NCBI GenBank assembly: GCA_012961035.1
Contig: DUAC01000039.1
Span: 1 to 39,866 of the forward strand
Reading direction: 5' to 3'
Length of the DNA stretch: 39,866 bases
Origin: Acidimicrobiia bacterium
GTDB lineage: Bacteria; Actinomycetota; Acidimicrobiia; Acidimicrobiales; MedAcidi-G1
Part shown: positions 54 through 7,501 of the stretch, piece after piece
Layout: each line of letters starts with the position of its first letter
Position numbering within the stretch: position 1 is the first letter of the stretch
The notes under the pieces: model-generated
What the model was told of the DNA's origin: nothing
Seen by the model: only the letters and a program-made list of their open reading frames with translations
Databases searched by the model: none
Program-made: the position numbers and the translations under genes

Positions 54-1265
54 TCAGGCGTCCACGTAGCGCGGAAGCCAGACCGTGAACGTGGCCCCGT
101 CGCCGACCGTCGAGCGGACGGTGGCACGCCCACCGTGGCCCTCGGCGATCTGCCTCACGATGGCCAGCCCCAGACCGGAACGACCAACCTCCCCGGCCGA
201 GGCCCGCTCGCCGCGCCAGAACCGTTGGAACACCCGGTCCAGGTGCTCGGCCGGTAGGCCGGGTCCGTCGTCGACCACCGAGGCCCAGACCATCTCGTCG
301 TCCCGACCCGTCATCACCCTGACCCGACCCCCGGCATCGGATACCCGGATGGCGTTGCTGAGGAGGTTGGCCAGGGCCCGCCGCAGCGCAGCCGCATCAC
401 CCAGCACGTCCAGGCCGCTGCACCGGTCGTGGTCCAACCCCACCCCTTCACGCGACGCCGCGGCCGCGAAGTCCTCGACCGTCTCGGCCACCACCGTTCC
501 AAGGTCGATCGGCTCGCGGCTGCTGTCCCTCCGCTCGTGGTGTGCGTAGAGGAGCAGGTCGTCCACCAGCACCGACATCCTCTCTGCGGCCCGCACGGCC
601 ACCACGCCGGCCGCCCGGAAGTCCTCGGGCCCTGCGTCCGGATCGGCCATGACGACGTCGAGGTTGGTCCGCAGCACGGCGAGCGGATTCCGAAGCTCGT
701 GGGAGGCCTCCTGTACGAAGCGTCGCTGTCCCTCGAAGGACTCGTCCAACCGGCCCAGCATCTCGTCGAACGTGTCGGCCAGGTCCCGGAGCTCGTCGGA
801 TGGACCACCGAGGTCGATCCGGCGGGACAGGTCGGTGGCCGTGATCTCCCGGGCCACCGCAGATATGCGGCCGATCGGGCGCAGGACGAGGCCCGCCACG
901 TACCAGCCGACGGCGATGCTCCCGAGGAAGAGGCCTCCAAGGGCGGTGAACGAATATGCGCGCAGGCGTTCGAGGGCCCTGCGGTTCACCTCCGACTCGA
1001 AGATGACCAGCCACGGCCTCTCCTCATGGTCGCCCGGCGTCATCGACACGCCATCTGCGACATCGGTCGCGACCATCTGCTCGAAGCGGGCCATTCTGGA
1101 CATGGGCTCGTCGGACAACGCCCGGGAGAGGCCCAGGTAGATGCCGCCCACCATGACCGCAGCCAGGGCGAACAGCACGATCGAGTAGAGCAGCGCCAGG
1201 CGCGTACGGAGGCTTCCGAACCGGTCGGGCATGCGTCCCGCCAGGCCCCCGTCGAAGCGACTCAA
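54..1265 (-). CDS. Two-component sensor histidine kinase (HAMP-HisKA-HATPase)
   Basis: This is a membrane sensor kinase of 403 residues that autophosphorylates on histidine and passes phosphate to the adjacent response regulator. Two membrane segments (about residues 21-49 and 105-128) flank a short extracytoplasmic loop of about 55 residues. A HAMP linker (about 128-180) follows, then the H-box QEASHELRNPL with His189, the N-box around Asn304 (NLLSNAI), the DDGPG box at 332-336, an F-box near 346-349 and the SGLGL box at 363-367. All catalytic elements are present. The start is TTG, overlapping the regulator's TGA stop in TTGA, so translation is probably coupled. A later Met12 is an alternative start. 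The small sensory loop gives no clue to the signal. Family assignment is secure; the stimulus is unknown. Confidence 0.93.
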   Translation of the reverse strand: MSRFDGGLAGRMPDRFGSLRTRLALLYSIVLFALAAVMVGGIYLGLSRALSDEPMSRMARFEQMVATDVADGVSMTPGDHEERPWLVIFESEVNRRALERLRAYSFTALGGLFLGSIAVGWYVAGLVLRPIGRISAVAREITATDLSRRIDLGGPSDELRDLADTFDEMLGRLDESFEGQRRFVQEASHELRNPLAVLRTNLDVVMADPDAGPEDFRAAGVVAVRAAERMSVLVDDLLLYAHHERRDSSREPIDLGTVVAETVEDFAAAASREGVGLDHDRCSGLDVLGDAAALRRALANLLSNAIRVSDAGGRVRVMTGRDDEMVWASVVDDGPGLPAEHLDRVFQRFWRGERASAGEVGRSGLGLAIVRQIAEGHGGRATVRSTVGDGATFTVWLPRYVDA

Positions 1266-1954
1266 CGGACGTCGTCCCCGTCCAACAGCCGGTATCCGGA
1301 GCCGACCACCGTCTCCAGCAGCGCCGCCTCGCCGTCCATGCTGAGCTTCCGACGCAACGTCCCGACGGTGACCCGCACCGTGTTGGTGAACGGGTCGGCA
1401 TGCTCGTCCCAGACGTGGTCCAGCAGCACCTCCTGGGAAACGACCTCGCCTGGCCGACTCATGAAGTACCTCAGCAGGGCGAACTCCTTGGCCGTCAGGT
1501 CCAGGTCCCTGTCGTTGCGACGCGCCCTGTGGCGTGCGGTGTCCAGCACCACGTCACCCACCTCCAGGACCGCCCCTGAACGACCTGGATCACGGCGCAG
1601 CAGCGACCTGATCCTGGCCGACAGCTCGTCGAAGGCGAATGGCTTCACCAGGTAGTCGTCAGCGCCGACGTCCAGTCCACGAATCCGGTCCTCGACCGTG
1701 TCCCTGGCGGTGAGCATCAGGATGCGGGGTGGGAACCCGGCACCGGGATCCGCCCGCAGCGTCGAGCAGACCTCCAGCCCGTCGATGCCCGGCATGGTCA
1801 GGTCCAGGCAGATCAGGTCGTAGGGGGTGTAGGAGGCCTTGGCCAGCGCCTCCTCGCCATCCATCGCGGTGTCGACCGCGTAGCCCTCCCGACGCAGCCC
1901 CCGGGCCACGGCGTCCAGCAGGTCGGCCTCGTCGTCGACGAGCAGAATTCGCAC
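1262..1954 (-). CDS. OmpR/PhoB-family response regulator
   Basis: This DNA-binding response regulator of 230 residues is the partner of the downstream kinase. The receiver domain carries the acidic pair Asp7-Asp8, the phosphoacceptor Asp51 (in ICLDLTMPG), Thr82 (MLTARD) and Lys104 (LVKPF). A winged-helix OmpR-type effector domain spans about 130-226 and ends in the typical GSGYRL wing. The reading frame is open 44 codons further upstream, but that stretch is low-complexity and not conserved-looking. I chose the GTG at 1954 because the receiver begins there (VRILLVDDE) and because TACCGT lies exactly 7 bases upstream, as expected for a leaderless transcript. The regulator and kinase therefore form a two-gene operon with its own promoter just after smc. 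Confidence 0.93.
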   Translation of the reverse strand: MRILLVDDEADLLDAVARGLRREGYAVDTAMDGEEALAKASYTPYDLICLDLTMPGIDGLEVCSTLRADPGAGFPPRILMLTARDTVEDRIRGLDVGADDYLVKPFAFDELSARIRSLLRRDPGRSGAVLEVGDVVLDTARHRARRNDRDLDLTAKEFALLRYFMSRPGEVVSQEVLLDHVWDEHADPFTNTVRVTVGTLRRKLSMDGEAALLETVVGSGYRLLDGDDVR

Positions 1955-2006: not shown

Positions 2007-5000
2007 TCAGCCGTTGGTGAGGATGCCGAGGCGCTGGGCGACCCGCTCCGCCTCCACGCGCTCTGAGACGACACGGGACGAGCCACCTGGCGCCATCGAG
2101 ACCCCGTAGAGGCAGTCGGCGGCCTCCATCGTGCGCTTCTGGTGGCTCACGACCAGCAACTGGGCGTCATCTCGGAACTGCTCCAGGAGGCCCAGGAACC
2201 TGTGCAGGTTCACGTCGTCGAGGGCCGCCTCCACCTCGTCCATCACGTAGAAGGGCGACGGGCGACTCCGGAAGACGGCGAACAGGAATGCCAGCGCCGT
2301 CAGGGACCGCTCACCACCCGAGAGCAGCGACAGCTTCTTCACGTTCTTACCGGAGGGTCGGGCCTCGACCTCCAGACCGGTCTCGAGCAGGTCGTTCGGA
2401 TCGGTCAGGCGGAGCCGCCCCTCGCCTCCGGGGAAGAGGGTCTCGAACAGGTCGGTGAAGTGCGAGGACACCTCGGCGAAGGCGGATGCGAACACCGAGA
2501 CGATCTCCTCGTCGACCGACCGGATGACCTTGCGGAGCTCGGTCCGGGTGGAGCGGATGTCGTCCAGCTGTTCCTGCAGGAACTCGTGCCGTTCCCTCAG
2601 TGCATCGAACTCGGCCAGTGCCAGGGGGTTGATCGGGCCCATCAACTTCAACTCCCGCTCCAGGGTGGCCACCCTGGAGGCGACTGTGGTCCCGAGGGCC
2701 AACTCCGGGCAGGGGGCGTCCAGCGCCGCTTCCGGTTCGAGGTCGAACTCGCTCCGGACCGCCTCGGTGATGTTCTCGATCCGCATCCGCGTCTCGGCCC
2801 TGTCGATCTCCAGCCGGGACTGGTGCTCACGTGTCTCACGGAGTGCCGTCTCGGCACGGGAGCGATCCTTGCGGAGACCGTCCAGGCGAAGGGCCACGGC
2901 CCGGACGCGCTCCGACTGCAGGCGGCGGCGGTCCCGCAGGAAGTCCAGCTTGACGTCGACCACCGACATCCGACCGTCGACCGCCCCCATCAGGTGGCGG
3001 GTGGCCGCCTCACGACCGGTCAGGTCGGCGCTCAACTCCGATGCCGCCGCCCGCTCGTCGGTGAGCTGGGCCAACCGGCTACGCAACTCGGCGACGCGTG
3101 CCCGGACGACAGCGAGTTGACCGGTCACCTCGGCAACCTGGACGTCGTGTCCGGTTCGACGGGCGCCAAGCGCCGCCGCCCTCTCCTCGAGGTCGCTCCG
3201 GGCGGCGTTCATGCGTCTGACCGCCTGCACGGAAGCCTCCTCGGCAGCCTCCAGGATGGGAAGGCGATCCTCCAGCTCGGTCACCCTCCGGACCTCGTCC
3301 TCAAGGCGCTGGTCCAGCTCGCCGAGGCGCGTCCGCAGCGACCCGGCCTCGTTGGAGAGGTCCCGGCGCTCCACCTGGAGCCGCTGGAGGGCCTCGGCCG
3401 CCGCCGTGAACCTGCCGTCGTGCTCGTCCAGCTCGCGGTTCCGGCGGGCCACGTCGTCGTCCGCCTCGCTGGCCGCCCGCTCGGCCAGGTCGAGTACCCG
3501 CGATGCCTCGGCGTGCTCCACCTCGGCGACTGCCAACCGACCCTCGGCCTCGGCCAGGGCCGCTCCGGTCGCCCCCCGACCGTCTCCGCCGATGCGCCAA
3601 CCAGACGGTCCGAACCGATCACCGGTCGGCGTGACGATCACCGCATCGGGGTGGCTCAACGCCAGGTCCAGAACCGACTCCAGGTCACCATCCACGAGGA
3701 CGACATGACCGAGGAGGCGGTCCAGCAGACCCTCGACCACCTCGCTGCGGGCCCTCACCCTCGGTCGCACCGCTGATCCGAACCCGGGCGGAACCTGACC
3801 GGTGGATTCCACGTCAAGGGCCAGGACCGCCGCCGTGAGGTGTCCGTCGCGAAGCGCCGTGAGTGCCTCCAGGACGTGGTCCAAGCCGCTGACGACCACC
3901 GCATCCAGGGCTGATCCGGCAGCCGCCTCGAACGCCGCCTCGAAGCCCTCCTCCACCTCAACCAGGTCCAGGAGGGTGCCCATCACGCCGTCAATGCCCG
4001 CCAGGTGCTCGGCACCGGCCCTCGACCGGGCCTCGTCCAGCGCCAGGGCCAGGGCATCGGCACGGGCGCCGGCCGTCCTGATCTCGGCCTCGGCGACCAC
4101 CATCCGTTCCCAGGCGACGTTCCTGCCGAGGGCCGCCTCGTGGGCACGCTCCTCCGCCCGGGACATGACCGCCACCAACGGCTCCTCTTCCGACTCACCC
4201 ACCGAGAGATCGCCCCTCAGGCGGTCCGCCTCACCGTCGAGCAGAAGCGCTGCGGCATCTATCACCTCGAGCCGTACGGCCAGGCGGCCCCTCTCGGCGC
4301 CGGCCTGGGCCACAGCGGCCCTCAGCACCCCGAGCTCTCCCCGGGTTTCGGCGGCGTGGCCTCCGAGGGGCACCACGCCCTCGGACCAGGACATCTCGAA
4401 GGCGGCACGATCCGCGTCCAACCCCGTCCCGGCAAGGGCGAGGCGTTCGGCCTCCGGTGCCAGCCCGTCGGCCTCGGCATCCAGCTCGGCTGACTTCACC
4501 TCCGAGCGTTCCAACTCGGCCTCCAGCCCGACGACCACCTGCTGGGAGAACAGCGTGGTGCGCTCGCGCTCGATCCCGCGGAGTCGTTCCACGAGCACCG
4601 CCCGCAACCCGCGACCCCGCTCCCGCAGGGCCTCCAGACGGACCAGACGATCGCCCATGTCATCACCGCCGCGGCTGGCCAGCTCGTCCTCCGCAGCGGT
4701 CACCTCGGCATCGAAGCGTGCAAGGTCGGTGGTGTGGGTGGACTGCCCGGAAGCCAGTTGGGCCCGCCGGCCGGCCTCGTCACGAGCCCTGGTCCGAAGG
4801 CCGGCCAGCTCCCTGCCGGCGCGGTGCAACCTCAGCGCCGTGAGCTCCTGGACCAGGTCGCCGTGGCGTCGGGCCGCATCGGCCTGACGCTCCAGCGGCC
4901 TGACCTGGCGTCGAACCTCCCGCAGGAGATCGGACAGCCGGTCCAGGTTCGCCTCGGTGGAACGGAGACGTCGCTGGGCCTTCTCCTTGCGACGCCGGTA

Positions 5001-5507
5001 CTTCAGGATTCCGGCGGCGTCCTCGATGATCATCCGCCGCTCCTCGGGGCGGGCATTCAGGACGGCGTCGATCTGACCCTGGGAGATGATCACGTGCTGC
5101 TGGCGCCCGACGCCGACGTCGGAGAGCAACTCCTGGATGTCCAGCAGCCGACAGGGCGCTCCGTTCATCGAGTACTCGCTGTCACCCGCCCGGAACAGGG
5201 TCCGGGTGATTGTGACCTCGCCGAACTCGACCGGAAGCTGCCCGGACGAGTTGTCGATGGTGAGGGAGACCTCGGCCCTGCCCAGGGCGGCCCGGGTGGC
5301 GGTGCCGGCGAAGATCACATCGTCCATCTTCTGGGAACGCACGGCACTGGGAGCCTGGGCTCCCAGGACCCAGGCTATGGCGTCCACGACGTTGGACTTG
5401 CCGCTTCCGTTGGGTCCCACGACGACCGTGACACCCGACTCCATCTCCAGAACCGCCGTATCGGCGAACGACTTGAAGCCCTTGATGGACAGCCGCTTCA
5501 GGAACAC
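2007..5507 (-). CDS. smc: Chromosome segregation ATPase SMC
   Basis: SMC is the ATPase subunit of the bacterial condensin, working with ScpA and ScpB in chromosome compaction and segregation. At 1166 residues it has normal length. The N-terminal head has Walker A GPNGSGKSN (about 31-39), followed by a long coiled coil, a hinge in the middle (roughly 480-650), a second coiled coil, then the C-terminal head with the ABC signature LSGGERSLTALAF and a Walker B/D-loop VMDEVEAALDD. I chose the GTG at 5507, giving VFLKRLSIKGFKSFA like other SMCs, with AGGTGG 8 bases upstream. A GTG four codons earlier is possible but lies inside that Shine-Dalgarno sequence. The neighbours rnc and the mutM-type gene are the usual actinobacterial context. 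The usual ftsY does not follow; a two-component pair does. Confidence 0.97.
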   Translation of the reverse strand: MFLKRLSIKGFKSFADTAVLEMESGVTVVVGPNGSGKSNVVDAIAWVLGAQAPSAVRSQKMDDVIFAGTATRAALGRAEVSLTIDNSSGQLPVEFGEVTITRTLFRAGDSEYSMNGAPCRLLDIQELLSDVGVGRQQHVIISQGQIDAVLNARPEERRMIIEDAAGILKYRRRKEKAQRRLRSTEANLDRLSDLLREVRRQVRPLERQADAARRHGDLVQELTALRLHRAGRELAGLRTRARDEAGRRAQLASGQSTHTTDLARFDAEVTAAEDELASRGGDDMGDRLVRLEALRERGRGLRAVLVERLRGIERERTTLFSQQVVVGLEAELERSEVKSAELDAEADGLAPEAERLALAGTGLDADRAAFEMSWSEGVVPLGGHAAETRGELGVLRAAVAQAGAERGRLAVRLEVIDAAALLLDGEADRLRGDLSVGESEEEPLVAVMSRAEERAHEAALGRNVAWERMVVAEAEIRTAGARADALALALDEARSRAGAEHLAGIDGVMGTLLDLVEVEEGFEAAFEAAAGSALDAVVVSGLDHVLEALTALRDGHLTAAVLALDVESTGQVPPGFGSAVRPRVRARSEVVEGLLDRLLGHVVLVDGDLESVLDLALSHPDAVIVTPTGDRFGPSGWRIGGDGRGATGAALAEAEGRLAVAEVEHAEASRVLDLAERAASEADDDVARRNRELDEHDGRFTAAAEALQRLQVERRDLSNEAGSLRTRLGELDQRLEDEVRRVTELEDRLPILEAAEEASVQAVRRMNAARSDLEERAAALGARRTGHDVQVAEVTGQLAVVRARVAELRSRLAQLTDERAAASELSADLTGREAATRHLMGAVDGRMSVVDVKLDFLRDRRRLQSERVRAVALRLDGLRKDRSRAETALRETREHQSRLEIDRAETRMRIENITEAVRSEFDLEPEAALDAPCPELALGTTVASRVATLERELKLMGPINPLALAEFDALRERHEFLQEQLDDIRSTRTELRKVIRSVDEEIVSVFASAFAEVSSHFTDLFETLFPGGEGRLRLTDPNDLLETGLEVEARPSGKNVKKLSLLSGGERSLTALAFLFAVFRSRPSPFYVMDEVEAALDDVNLHRFLGLLEQFRDDAQLLVVSHQKRTMEAADCLYGVSMAPGGSSRVVSERVEAERVAQRLGILTNG

Positions 5508-5557
5508 GTCGGCACCCACCTGGCGCGCGCCTGAATCACAACCGTGTCATTCACCAT
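5498..5557 (-). CDS. Possible 19-residue leaderless leader peptide before smc
   Basis: An ATG at 5557 sits 7 bases after a TAGGGT box (5565-5570), the same geometry as the leaderless genes in this window. The ORF reads MVNDTVVIQARARWVPTCS and stops with TGA at 5500-5498, seven bases inside smc in another frame. If the promoter is real, this peptide would be translated first and smc reached by its own Shine-Dalgarno sequence or by reinitiation. There is no homology evidence, so this is an inference from position only. Confidence 0.25.
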   Translation of the reverse strand: MVNDTVVIQARARWVPTCS

Positions 5558-5614: not shown

Positions 5615-6457
5615 TCAGACCTGGGTCTCGCAGAAGTAGGTCCAACGACCCTTGTACTTGACCCGCTGGATGGCGGAACGGTTGCGCTCGCTGAGGGCGC
5701 CGGCCCTGCCATAGACGGCGAGGTGGTGGCGATAGGTACCGGGCTCGCCGTACACGTCCACGAAGGGCCTGTCATCCAGGTCGGTACCGCGGTACTTGAT
5801 GGCGTCGTTCACCACCGAGATCAGGGCTCCGTGCAGGCGCCGCACCTCCTGGGTGGAGAGGCTGTTGGAGGGGCGGTCGTGTCGGAGGCCGGCGTGGAAG
5901 AGGATCTCGTCGGAGTAGACCTCGCCGACTCCCACCACCACGGCGTCGTCGCAGAGCAGGTCCTTCAGGGGCACCTTCCGGCCCAGGACCTGGCCGGCGA
6001 AGGCCGTCCACGGGACCATCTCGCCGGCCGGATCGATTCCGCTGGCGCCCAGCTCGGGGAACTCGGAGAGCAGGTCCTCGGGTGCCACCACGCAGAGCTC
6101 CGATGCGCCCTCCGGGTCGACGAGGCGAAACTGGCCTCCGATGGTGAATGTGAAGGTGGCCTCGGTCCCGGGCTGGACGGCATCCCTGGCGGCGTGACGA
6201 CGGATGGTCGCCCCGGCTCCGGGGCGGATCACCAGCAGGTCGTCGTTGTCCAGCTTGATCACGAGCGTCAGGCCCATGCGCCGAACCGGTCCCAGCTTGC
6301 GACCCTCCACGCGTAAGGCGAAGGACTTGCGGTTCCTGTAACGACTGAGCGTGGCCATCGAGGCCATGTCGACCGTCTTGACCTTGCGACCGGCTATCTC
6401 ACGGTCGAGGGCGTGGCGGATGGTCTCCACCTCGGGTAGTTCCAGATCGATTGTCAC
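5615..6457 (-). CDS. Fpg/MutM-family protein lacking expected catalytic residues
   Basis: The protein has 280 residues and the Fpg/Nei fold signature: LELPEVETI at 5-13, a helix-two-turn-helix region near 163-212 (LLCDDAVVVGVGEVYSDE), and a C-terminal finger-like region ending in TYFC. It sits in the mutM position between rnc and smc, with its GTG overlapping the rnc stop in GTGA. Classical MutM excises 8-oxoguanine and FaPy using an N-terminal proline exposed after Met removal. Here that proline aligns with Leu5 and is preceded by extra residues. The conserved lysine of the GK(Y) strand appears replaced in RRMG (59-62). The usual HLGMSG loop reads RPGAG, and the GxGN asparagine is Glu179. 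Three of the four zinc-finger cysteines are missing, with only Cys276 left. Damage-DNA binding without excision is possible. Family membership is secure; glycosylase activity is doubtful. Confidence 0.85.
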   Translation of the reverse strand: MTIDLELPEVETIRHALDREIAGRKVKTVDMASMATLSRYRNRKSFALRVEGRKLGPVRRMGLTLVIKLDNDDLLVIRPGAGATIRRHAARDAVQPGTEATFTFTIGGQFRLVDPEGASELCVVAPEDLLSEFPELGASGIDPAGEMVPWTAFAGQVLGRKVPLKDLLCDDAVVVGVGEVYSDEILFHAGLRHDRPSNSLSTQEVRRLHGALISVVNDAIKYRGTDLDDRPFVDVYGEPGTYRHHLAVYGRAGALSERNRSAIQRVKYKGRWTYFCETQV

Positions 6458-7194
6458 GTTGCTTCCAGACTCGTGGTCGGTGGTGTATCTACGGTTGTCG
6501 AGGGCATGCGGTCGGTTGCCGGCGTCGTGCCGGCAATGGCATCGAAGGCCATGCGGGCCGCCGCCTGCTCGGCCCGCTTCCGGGAGGTTCCCGTAGCAGG
6601 GCCATGGGAGCCGCCTGCCACCTCCACGACCGCGTGGAATCGCTTGTCGTGGTCCGGGCCCTCGTCGGTCAGGACGTAGCGGGGGGTCGGGATGGACTCC
6701 CGTGCGGCCAGTTCCTGGAGGCGGGTCTTGTAGTCCTGTATGCCGGGGTCGACGGCGGCCAGGACGAGCCGATCACCGAACAACCGCCGGACGAGCGACT
6801 CTGCTGCCACCGGGCCACCGTCCAGGTGGACCGCGGCGATGACCGCCTCGAGGGCGTCGGCCAGGATGGACTCCTTGTCGCTCCCACCGGACGTCGACTC
6901 CCCGTGTCCGAAGCGGATCGAATCACCCAGCCGGATGCCACGGGCCACCTCGGCGAGCGCCGGAGCACTCACGACCGCGGCGCGGATCATGGCGAGGTGT
7001 CCCTCCGACAGGTCGGGGTGGTCCCTGAAGAGCTGGTCGGCGATCACCATTCCCAGCACGGCGTCGCCAAGGAACTCCAACCGCTCGTTGGAGGTGCCGC
7101 CGTTCTCGGCGCACCACGACCGGTGGGTCGTCGCATCCCTCAGCAGGTCCGGGTCTCCGAACCTGTGGCCGAGGCCAGCCTCCAGGCCAACCAT
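6454..7194 (-). CDS. rnc: Ribonuclease III
   Basis: RNase III cleaves double-stranded RNA in rRNA precursor processing and RNA turnover. From the ATG at 7194 the protein is 246 residues. The catalytic motif NERLEFLGDAVL (36-47) supplies Glu37, Glu40 and Asp44, and the second acidic pair is Asp113 and Glu116 in LADALEAV. A double-stranded RNA-binding domain spans about 160-228 and is followed by a Thr/Pro-rich tail. Longer in-frame starts at 7233 and 7266 would overlap acpP, so I preferred 7194, 16 bases after the acpP stop. The Shine-Dalgarno signal is weak, leaving the start uncertain. The stop overlaps the next gene in GTGA. Confidence 0.93.
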   Translation of the reverse strand: MVGLEAGLGHRFGDPDLLRDATTHRSWCAENGGTSNERLEFLGDAVLGMVIADQLFRDHPDLSEGHLAMIRAAVVSAPALAEVARGIRLGDSIRFGHGESTSGGSDKESILADALEAVIAAVHLDGGPVAAESLVRRLFGDRLVLAAVDPGIQDYKTRLQELAARESIPTPRYVLTDEGPDHDKRFHAVVEVAGGSHGPATGTSRKRAEQAAARMAFDAIAGTTPATDRMPSTTVDTPPTTSLEAT

Positions 7195-7210
7195 GTCGTG
7201 GGACCGCTGC

Positions 7211-7501
7211 TCAGCCGAGGCGAGAGACGACATAGTCGACGGCATCGCGGACCGTCTTGAGGTCATCCAGGTCGTCGTCGTCGATGCGGAAGCCGGCGGA
7301 ACGCTCGCTGAACTCCTCCTCGAGGGCCTCGACCAGCTCGATCAGAGCCAGCGAGTCGGCATCCAGGTCGTTGGCGAATGAGTCGCCCTCGCCGATGTCG
7401 GAGGGCTCGATCTCGAGGATGTCGGCCAGACGGTCCTTGACGATCTCCAGCACCTCACGGCGCTCGATCGGCACACCTTCGACATGGGTTTCTGCTGGCA
7501 C
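7211..7501 (-). CDS. acpP: Acyl carrier protein
   Basis: This small acidic protein of 96 residues carries acyl chains on phosphopantetheine during fatty acid synthesis. The modification site is Ser50 in the DADSL motif, followed by the acidic recognition helix (ALIELVEALEEEF). It is somewhat longer than the usual 75-85 residues because of an N-terminal extension of about 10 residues and an acidic loop (DDDDLDDL). The GTG start is supported by GAGGAG 7 bases upstream. A 182-base gap separates it from plsX, unusually long for this cluster. That gap holds a candidate promoter and an array of three 10-bp repeats, so acpP may be transcribed separately from the upstream genes. Confidence 0.9.
   Translation of the reverse strand: MPAETHVEGVPIERREVLEIVKDRLADILEIEPSDIGEGDSFANDLDADSLALIELVEALEEEFSERSAGFRIDDDDLDDLKTVRDAVDYVVSRLG

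Follow-up and report, generated by a model that had tools for sequence, protein, structure and literature searches.

A conserved MutM-like protein between rnc and smc of Acidimicrobiia with a degenerate active site: a probable pseudoenzyme

Few repair enzymes have been studied as closely as MutM, to which a single job is usually ascribed. The locus studied here raises the question of what a MutM-like protein is kept for when its active site is degenerate. The window, which is the whole 39,866-nucleotide stretch of an Acidimicrobiia genome that was analysed, carries on its minus strand, as do all window features given below, a gene for 280 amino acids (5615..6457, GTG start, stop codon included). 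As the initial annotation stated, this gene occupies the mutM synteny slot, with rnc (RNase III; 6454..7266) upstream and smc (2007..5519) downstream, and is referred to as the slot gene. The rnc stop overlaps the start codon of the slot gene, the GTG lying inside the 4-nt overlap (GTGA); overlaps of 4 or 8 nt with rnc are common among slot loci. The first four codons (MTID, 6446..6457) form an N-terminal extension before the catalytic-proline position, and the family orthologs start with ATG, GTG, or TTG at this position and have the same short extension throughout. An alternative start restoring PELPE was ruled out, since both the rnc overlap and the alignment of all relatives fix the start, and so was a CTG start at Leu5, where relatives carry H, T, Y, or P. 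The frame is intact, as had been claimed: no stop or frameshift was found in any family ortholog found whole, and neither another start nor a frameshift gives a P-E-L-P-E N-terminus.

The residue changes are numbered after the MutM of G. stearothermophilus (Bst MutM). Leu5 (CTG, 6443..6445) replaces the catalytic Pro2, with which it pairs by sequence and, in the VIA-align superimposition of the model, where residue 5 corresponds to chain residue 2. The adjacent Glu6 (6440..6442) is the equivalent of the catalytic Glu3. Leu63 (6269..6271) replaces the phosphate-binding Lys60, and RPGAGA (residues 78–83, 6209..6226) replaces the HLGMSG loop (H74–G79, HLxMxG), with R78 at the His74 position and A81 at the Met77 position. 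The segment E116–A118 (6104..6112) replaces the intercalating residues, Arg112 being E116 and Phe114 being A118; hence the intercalation triad Met77/Arg112/Phe114 is absent (A81, E116, A118). Glu179 (5921..5923) replaces Asn174 of the GxGN segment in the H2TH motif. The finger hairpin (residues 256–278, 5624..5692) is zincless, with S256, N259, and T278 for C249, C252, and C272, and of four cysteines only C269 (C276) is kept. Aside from C276, the window protein keeps E3 (E6), E6 (E9), R264 (R271), and Q273 (Q279). The substitutions listed in the initial annotation, namely those of the proline, the GK lysine, the HLGMSG loop, the GxGN asparagine, and three of four finger cysteines, were thus all found on alignment. 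Conservation of Leu5 among relatives, which had been set as support for neofunctionalisation, was not observed, as the position is free (L, H, T, Y, or an internal P) and the conserved trait is the absence of an N-terminal proline.

Retention of the Fpg fold, also proposed earlier, was borne out by structure prediction. The AF2 model, built from a 40-row alignment, has a mean pLDDT of 94.1 and a pTM of 0.90, and superimposes on MutM 1r2y with a Z score of 33.8 over 272 residues (2.2 Å, 32% identity). The best solved relative by sequence is G. stearothermophilus MutM (3gpp, E 8e-38). Both domains of the Fpg/Nei fold superfamily are present, as Pfam Fapy_DNA_glyco scores 51.2 bits (cut-off 25.5) and Pfam H2TH, covering residues 140–225 (5783..6040), scores 58.9 bits (cut-off 34.7). 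The protein falls below the curated NCBIfam fpg cut-offs, with 161.9 against 212 for PRK01103 and 144.4 against 203.3 for TIGR00577.

The same state is found in relatives of the window genome. Orthologs were found in 36 of 36 other genomes searched in the family, one split across two contigs and two cut at a contig end, and all have the short extension and none an N-terminal proline; an isolated single pseudogene is thereby ruled out. By title, the 80 named relatives that were fetched belong to Acidimicrobiia or to other Actinomycetota, save one record labelled Acidobacteria, and no relatives were found in the viral contigs searched. At nearly all slot loci with long enough flanks, rnc is upstream and smc downstream, and the window protein groups with slot proteins in trees. 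We scored 175 slot proteins of Acidimicrobiia at seven residues (Lys60, His74, Met77, Arg112, Phe114, Asn174, and Arg264). They fall into two states without intermediates: 50 are canonical, with six or seven residues kept, and 125 are degenerate, with at most three kept. The degenerate proteins have lost Pro2 in 104 cases, Lys60 in 124, and Cys249 in 106, and the Arg264 equivalent is Arg in just 36. The Glu3 equivalent is kept in 121 (97%), something not expected if chemistry were simply lost, and is F, D, or S in the other four. All 125 retain Glu6, Gly171, Tyr176, and Glu179, Cys269 is kept in every degenerate sequence reaching that position, and 41 columns are invariant across 13 diverse degenerate proteins.

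The tree gives an order to these losses. Among the degenerate proteins, Pro2 persists in several early branches in which Lys60, the loop, and the triad are gone, and later branches are without Pro2; hence loss of the proline was mostly late. When the trait columns were removed, degenerate proteins of family f23 stood beside canonical f23 proteins with starred support. A single clade of all degenerate proteins was rejected (p-AU 0.011), and a joint origin of the main degenerate clade and family f39 was not (p 0.298). The f23 grouping and the rejected single clade indicate repeated loss of the same residues.

Loss of the active site is accompanied by a change of charge and by a wider release of conserved positions. 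The median net charge is +7 for canonical slot proteins, −1 for degenerate ones, −4 for the window's family, and +9 for the second, canonical MutM described below (MutM-B). Of the positions that canonical slot MutM conserves, 27 vary freely in the degenerate group, including Pro2, Arg35, Lys60, His74, Met77, His93, Arg112, Phe114, Gln166, Asn174, Tyr242, and Arg264, several of which are lesion or backbone contacts in MutM structures. The contacts of N174, R264, and K60 and the intercalation loop are described in PMC3188539. Another set of residues is conserved in both slot states and different in MutM-B: K27, K54, R87, F104, G108, R111, D142, W150, R192, D194, R195, E204, R206, K221, and R260. 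Three of them (E204, R206, and K221) are on the helix 202–221 (5795..5854). On this helix R207 is invariant in degenerate proteins, and residue 210 is Arg in 86% of them and Gly in the window protein. By helical geometry, positions 206, 207, 210, and 221 would share one face.

A search of the rest of the genome for a canonical MutM, proposed as a check in the initial annotation, found MutM-B on contig C78 of the window genome (G000; 603-1421, minus strand). It has all catalytic residues and exceeds the two NCBIfam cut-offs (248 against 212 and 238 against 203), and all nine key residues are present in 30 of 30 MutM-B proteins. A second fragment of MutM-B (L063, G000:C73:28927-29526), which is truncated at the end of its contig and shares 96% identity with the C78 copy, is probably due to strain variation in this metagenome-assembled genome (MAG). 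Across three genome sets, 88 of 101 degenerate-slot genomes have a second canonical MutM, compared with 0 of 46 canonical-slot genomes. The latter count was 2 of 46 before inspection; the second Fpg-like matches in G095 and G118 were found to have no equivalents of Met77, Phe114, and Asn174 and are not MutM-type. These two proteins (L238 and L239) and L244 of G053 are Fpg/Nei-like and carry HLSQAG/HLMQGG and GGR where MutM has HLxMxG and GxGN. The second MutM of families f32 and f23 is canonical but of other types than MutM-B, and family f39 has four degenerate slots with MutM-B and three canonical slots without it. The degenerate slot thus goes with a second MutM, strongly in counts but over few independent events, since a tree-based pairs test found just four state changes, which puts significance out of reach. 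In thirteen degenerate-slot genomes, no second MutM reached the threshold. Some of them are incomplete MAGs, yet incompleteness is not obvious for genus g2, G053, or the genome of L040. Genus g2 accounts for five of the thirteen; MutM-B is absent from five of five sampled genomes there, all of them small, and the slot gene is retained.

Further repair-type genes were noted. A third paralog of Fpg/Nei type (L234-L237, L245, and L248), with MPEILEIE...RFGMTG and a finger ending in a CxxxHQ-like motif, has intact Lys60, Arg112, Asn174, and Arg264 equivalents and also occurs in genomes without MutM-B. In a small sample of family f1, four of five genomes without MutM-B (G017, G022, G026, G030, and G034) have a MutY-like match of 184–206 bits, and those with MutM-B (G000, G004, G007, G019, and G021) have EndoIII-like matches only (61–82 bits).

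We then compared selection on the slot gene with that on its neighbour and on MutM-B. By the Nei-Gojobori method, the slot gene has a median dN/dS of 0.118 across 19 matched genome pairs of the family, lower than the 0.177 of MutM-B and the 0.179 of rnc. In a set of 21 genomes, the mean amino-acid identity is 69.7% for the slot gene, 69.3% for MutM-B, and 62.8% for rnc. In genus g2, the one measurable pair (G017-G022) gives a dN/dS of 0.035 for the slot gene. These values argue against decay. The earlier suggestion of a retained non-catalytic role rather than decay is supported by the loss of catalytic residues, the kept fold, the dN/dS of 0.12, and the orthologs in 36 of 36 genomes.

The reading that we favour, with a probability of roughly 0.6, is that the slot protein is a vertically inherited rnc–mutM–smc MutM turned pseudoenzyme with a non-catalytic binding role. 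The residues that serve to excise and flip the base and to grip the backbone have disappeared as a set, and the slot gene stays in place under strong purifying selection. It is very probably a dead enzyme, and that it retains a function is just as probable; binding via a slot-specific surface is a tentative mechanism, to which we give somewhat less than even odds. The ancestral slot MutM would have had two jobs, excision of 8-oxoG/FapyG and a non-catalytic binding role. With another MutM supplying excision, the slot copy would be free to lose this activity and keep its second job. It would then act as a binding or scaffold protein that does not read lesions via the old active-site groove. The surface proposed comprises K27, K54, R87, R111, R192, D194/R195, E204/R206/R207, K221, the finger residues R258/R260, C276, and Q279-V280, and may engage a partner that acts in chromosome maintenance or in RNA processing. 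The slot-specific shared residues could partly reflect common ancestry or folding constraint.

The conserved glutamates bear on a different reading, in which the slot protein remains catalytic but its chemistry has changed. It would be a monofunctional glycosylase or lyase that acts on a different substrate by means of Glu6 (Glu3) and water, or of another amine. Such an enzyme is consistent with the Glu3 equivalent in 121 of 125 and Glu6 in 125 of 125 degenerate proteins, and with the ability of Nei2 P2A to keep 5-hydroxyuracil glycosylase and of NEIL3 to work with Val (PMC11323726). The P2A mutant of Nei2 keeps its in-vivo function as well, whereas K51A, at the Lys60 equivalent, loses both in-vitro activities (PMC11323726). 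As the proline is dispensable and the lysine needed in Nei2, the combined loss of Lys60, contacts, and charge is a stronger argument for a dead glycosylase than loss of the proline, which had been called unusual; that loss is real, but its weight was overstated. Lys60 is lost in 124 of 125 degenerate proteins, His74, Met77, Arg112, Phe114, and mostly Asn174 and Arg264 are lost too, the net charge is about zero, four proteins have F, D, or S for Glu3, and the N-terminus is shifted by three or four residues across the whole family. Altered chemistry is hence improbable, and novel chemistry, raised in the initial annotation, now appears less likely. A sensor of lesions or DNA structure that flags damage for another pathway without catalysis, like the alkyltransferase-like proteins, would account for the retained H2TH fold and for the conserved basic positions on one helix face. 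Lesion recognition without chemistry would, however, need the same contacts as the enzyme, and the intercalation triad and flipped-nucleotide contacts are lost together with the positive charge (from +7 to −1, or −4 in the window's family, against +9 in MutM-B) and the release of 27 canonical-conserved sites. The role in damage recognition suggested earlier is accordingly disfavoured, and we consider a sensor unlikely, at nearly the same low level as an altered enzyme.

Two further readings were considered. The common rnc overlaps mean that an open frame may matter for coupling, so that the gene could be a decaying leftover kept just as a translation bridge from rnc to smc. Purifying selection on it is nonetheless stronger than on rnc (0.118 against 0.179), 41 columns are invariant among the 13 diverse degenerate proteins, the family orthologs found whole have no stops or frameshifts, and the small g2 genomes keep the gene, which contradicts a mere bridge within this family and makes it very improbable. 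The window genome is a MAG of 212 contigs with 2.3% contamination, so a wrong start, a binning error, or an assembly error was considered; the chance of such an artefact is negligible, as 36 relatives from separate assemblies have the same state and extension at the same rnc/smc locus.

Several known systems are close to the slot protein. Bacterial MutM/Fpg (1r2y; TIGR00577/PRK01103) is alike in sequence, fold, and operon slot, and the slot protein differs from it in the lost Pro nucleophile, Lys60, His74, Met77, Arg112, Phe114, Asn174, and zinc and in scoring below the curated cut-offs. The zincless-finger Fpg/Nei proteins are active enzymes with a catalytic N-terminus and Lys. They include the plant/fungal Nei clade, NEIL1, and mimivirus Nei1, and share with the slot protein a finger hairpin without zinc cysteines (PMC3188539), whereas in the latter the active site is gone too. 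In NEIL3 the nucleophile proline is likewise replaced (Val2 for Pro2), and the enzyme is active with a free N-terminus that is correctly placed once Met is removed (PMC11323726); in the slot protein, by contrast, the N-terminus is extended so that the Pro2 position is residue 5, and Lys60 is missing. M. tuberculosis Rv0944 (Fpg2) is, like the slot gene, a MutM-family gene of Actinomycetota without the catalytic N-terminus. It is a truncated paralog that is full-length in other mycobacteria, and the rnc-linked Fpg1 is intact there (PMC2734929); here the reverse holds, with the rnc-linked copy degenerate and the other intact. The NFACT-N domain of Rqc2/RqcH is related to the Fpg/MutM/Nei domain and serves a purpose other than DNA base excision (PMC6514570); a search of the slot protein with NFACT_N gave no specific match (10.7 bits against a cut-off of 31, E 0.21).

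Precedents thus exist for Fpg homologs that are inactive or truncated (Rv0944, PMC2734929), for fingers without zinc (PMC3188539), and for a nucleophile other than proline (NEIL3). In the literature searched, with few subscription journals covered, we found no class-wide, operon-fixed MutM that was repeatedly inactivated yet strictly conserved beside a canonical replacement. The slot group would form a pseudoenzyme branch of MutM, and the degenerate state spans a large group of aquatic actinobacteria. Repeated loss of chemistry, with conservation above that of the active copy, amounts to a natural separation of function, through which a hidden role of slot MutM can be tested. A bolder and rather doubtful extension is that the rnc–smc MutM of Actinomycetota always carried a second, non-enzymatic function, selected above excision and repeatedly bared in Acidimicrobiia as the chemistry passed to another MutM; it may persist in canonical slot MutMs, e.g. 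mycobacterial Fpg1. For annotation, degenerate slot genes would be called MutM by homology but should be left out of counts of 8-oxoG repair genes; the active MutM is encoded elsewhere in the genome.

Further variant slot proteins were seen. L264 (G416, family f52 of another class), outside Acidimicrobiia, is a further degenerate slot-type MutM that keeps Pro2 and Lys60 and is changed in the loop, the triad, and Asn174. Five slot MutMs of the same phylum (L257, L258, L260, L261, and L263; families f58 and f92) likely have a GTG start directly at the Pro position. They would then begin with M-E-L-P-E-V, Met1 standing where Pro is expected, and they retain the remaining catalytic, lesion, and zinc residues, which makes them candidates for MutM with a non-proline nucleophile.
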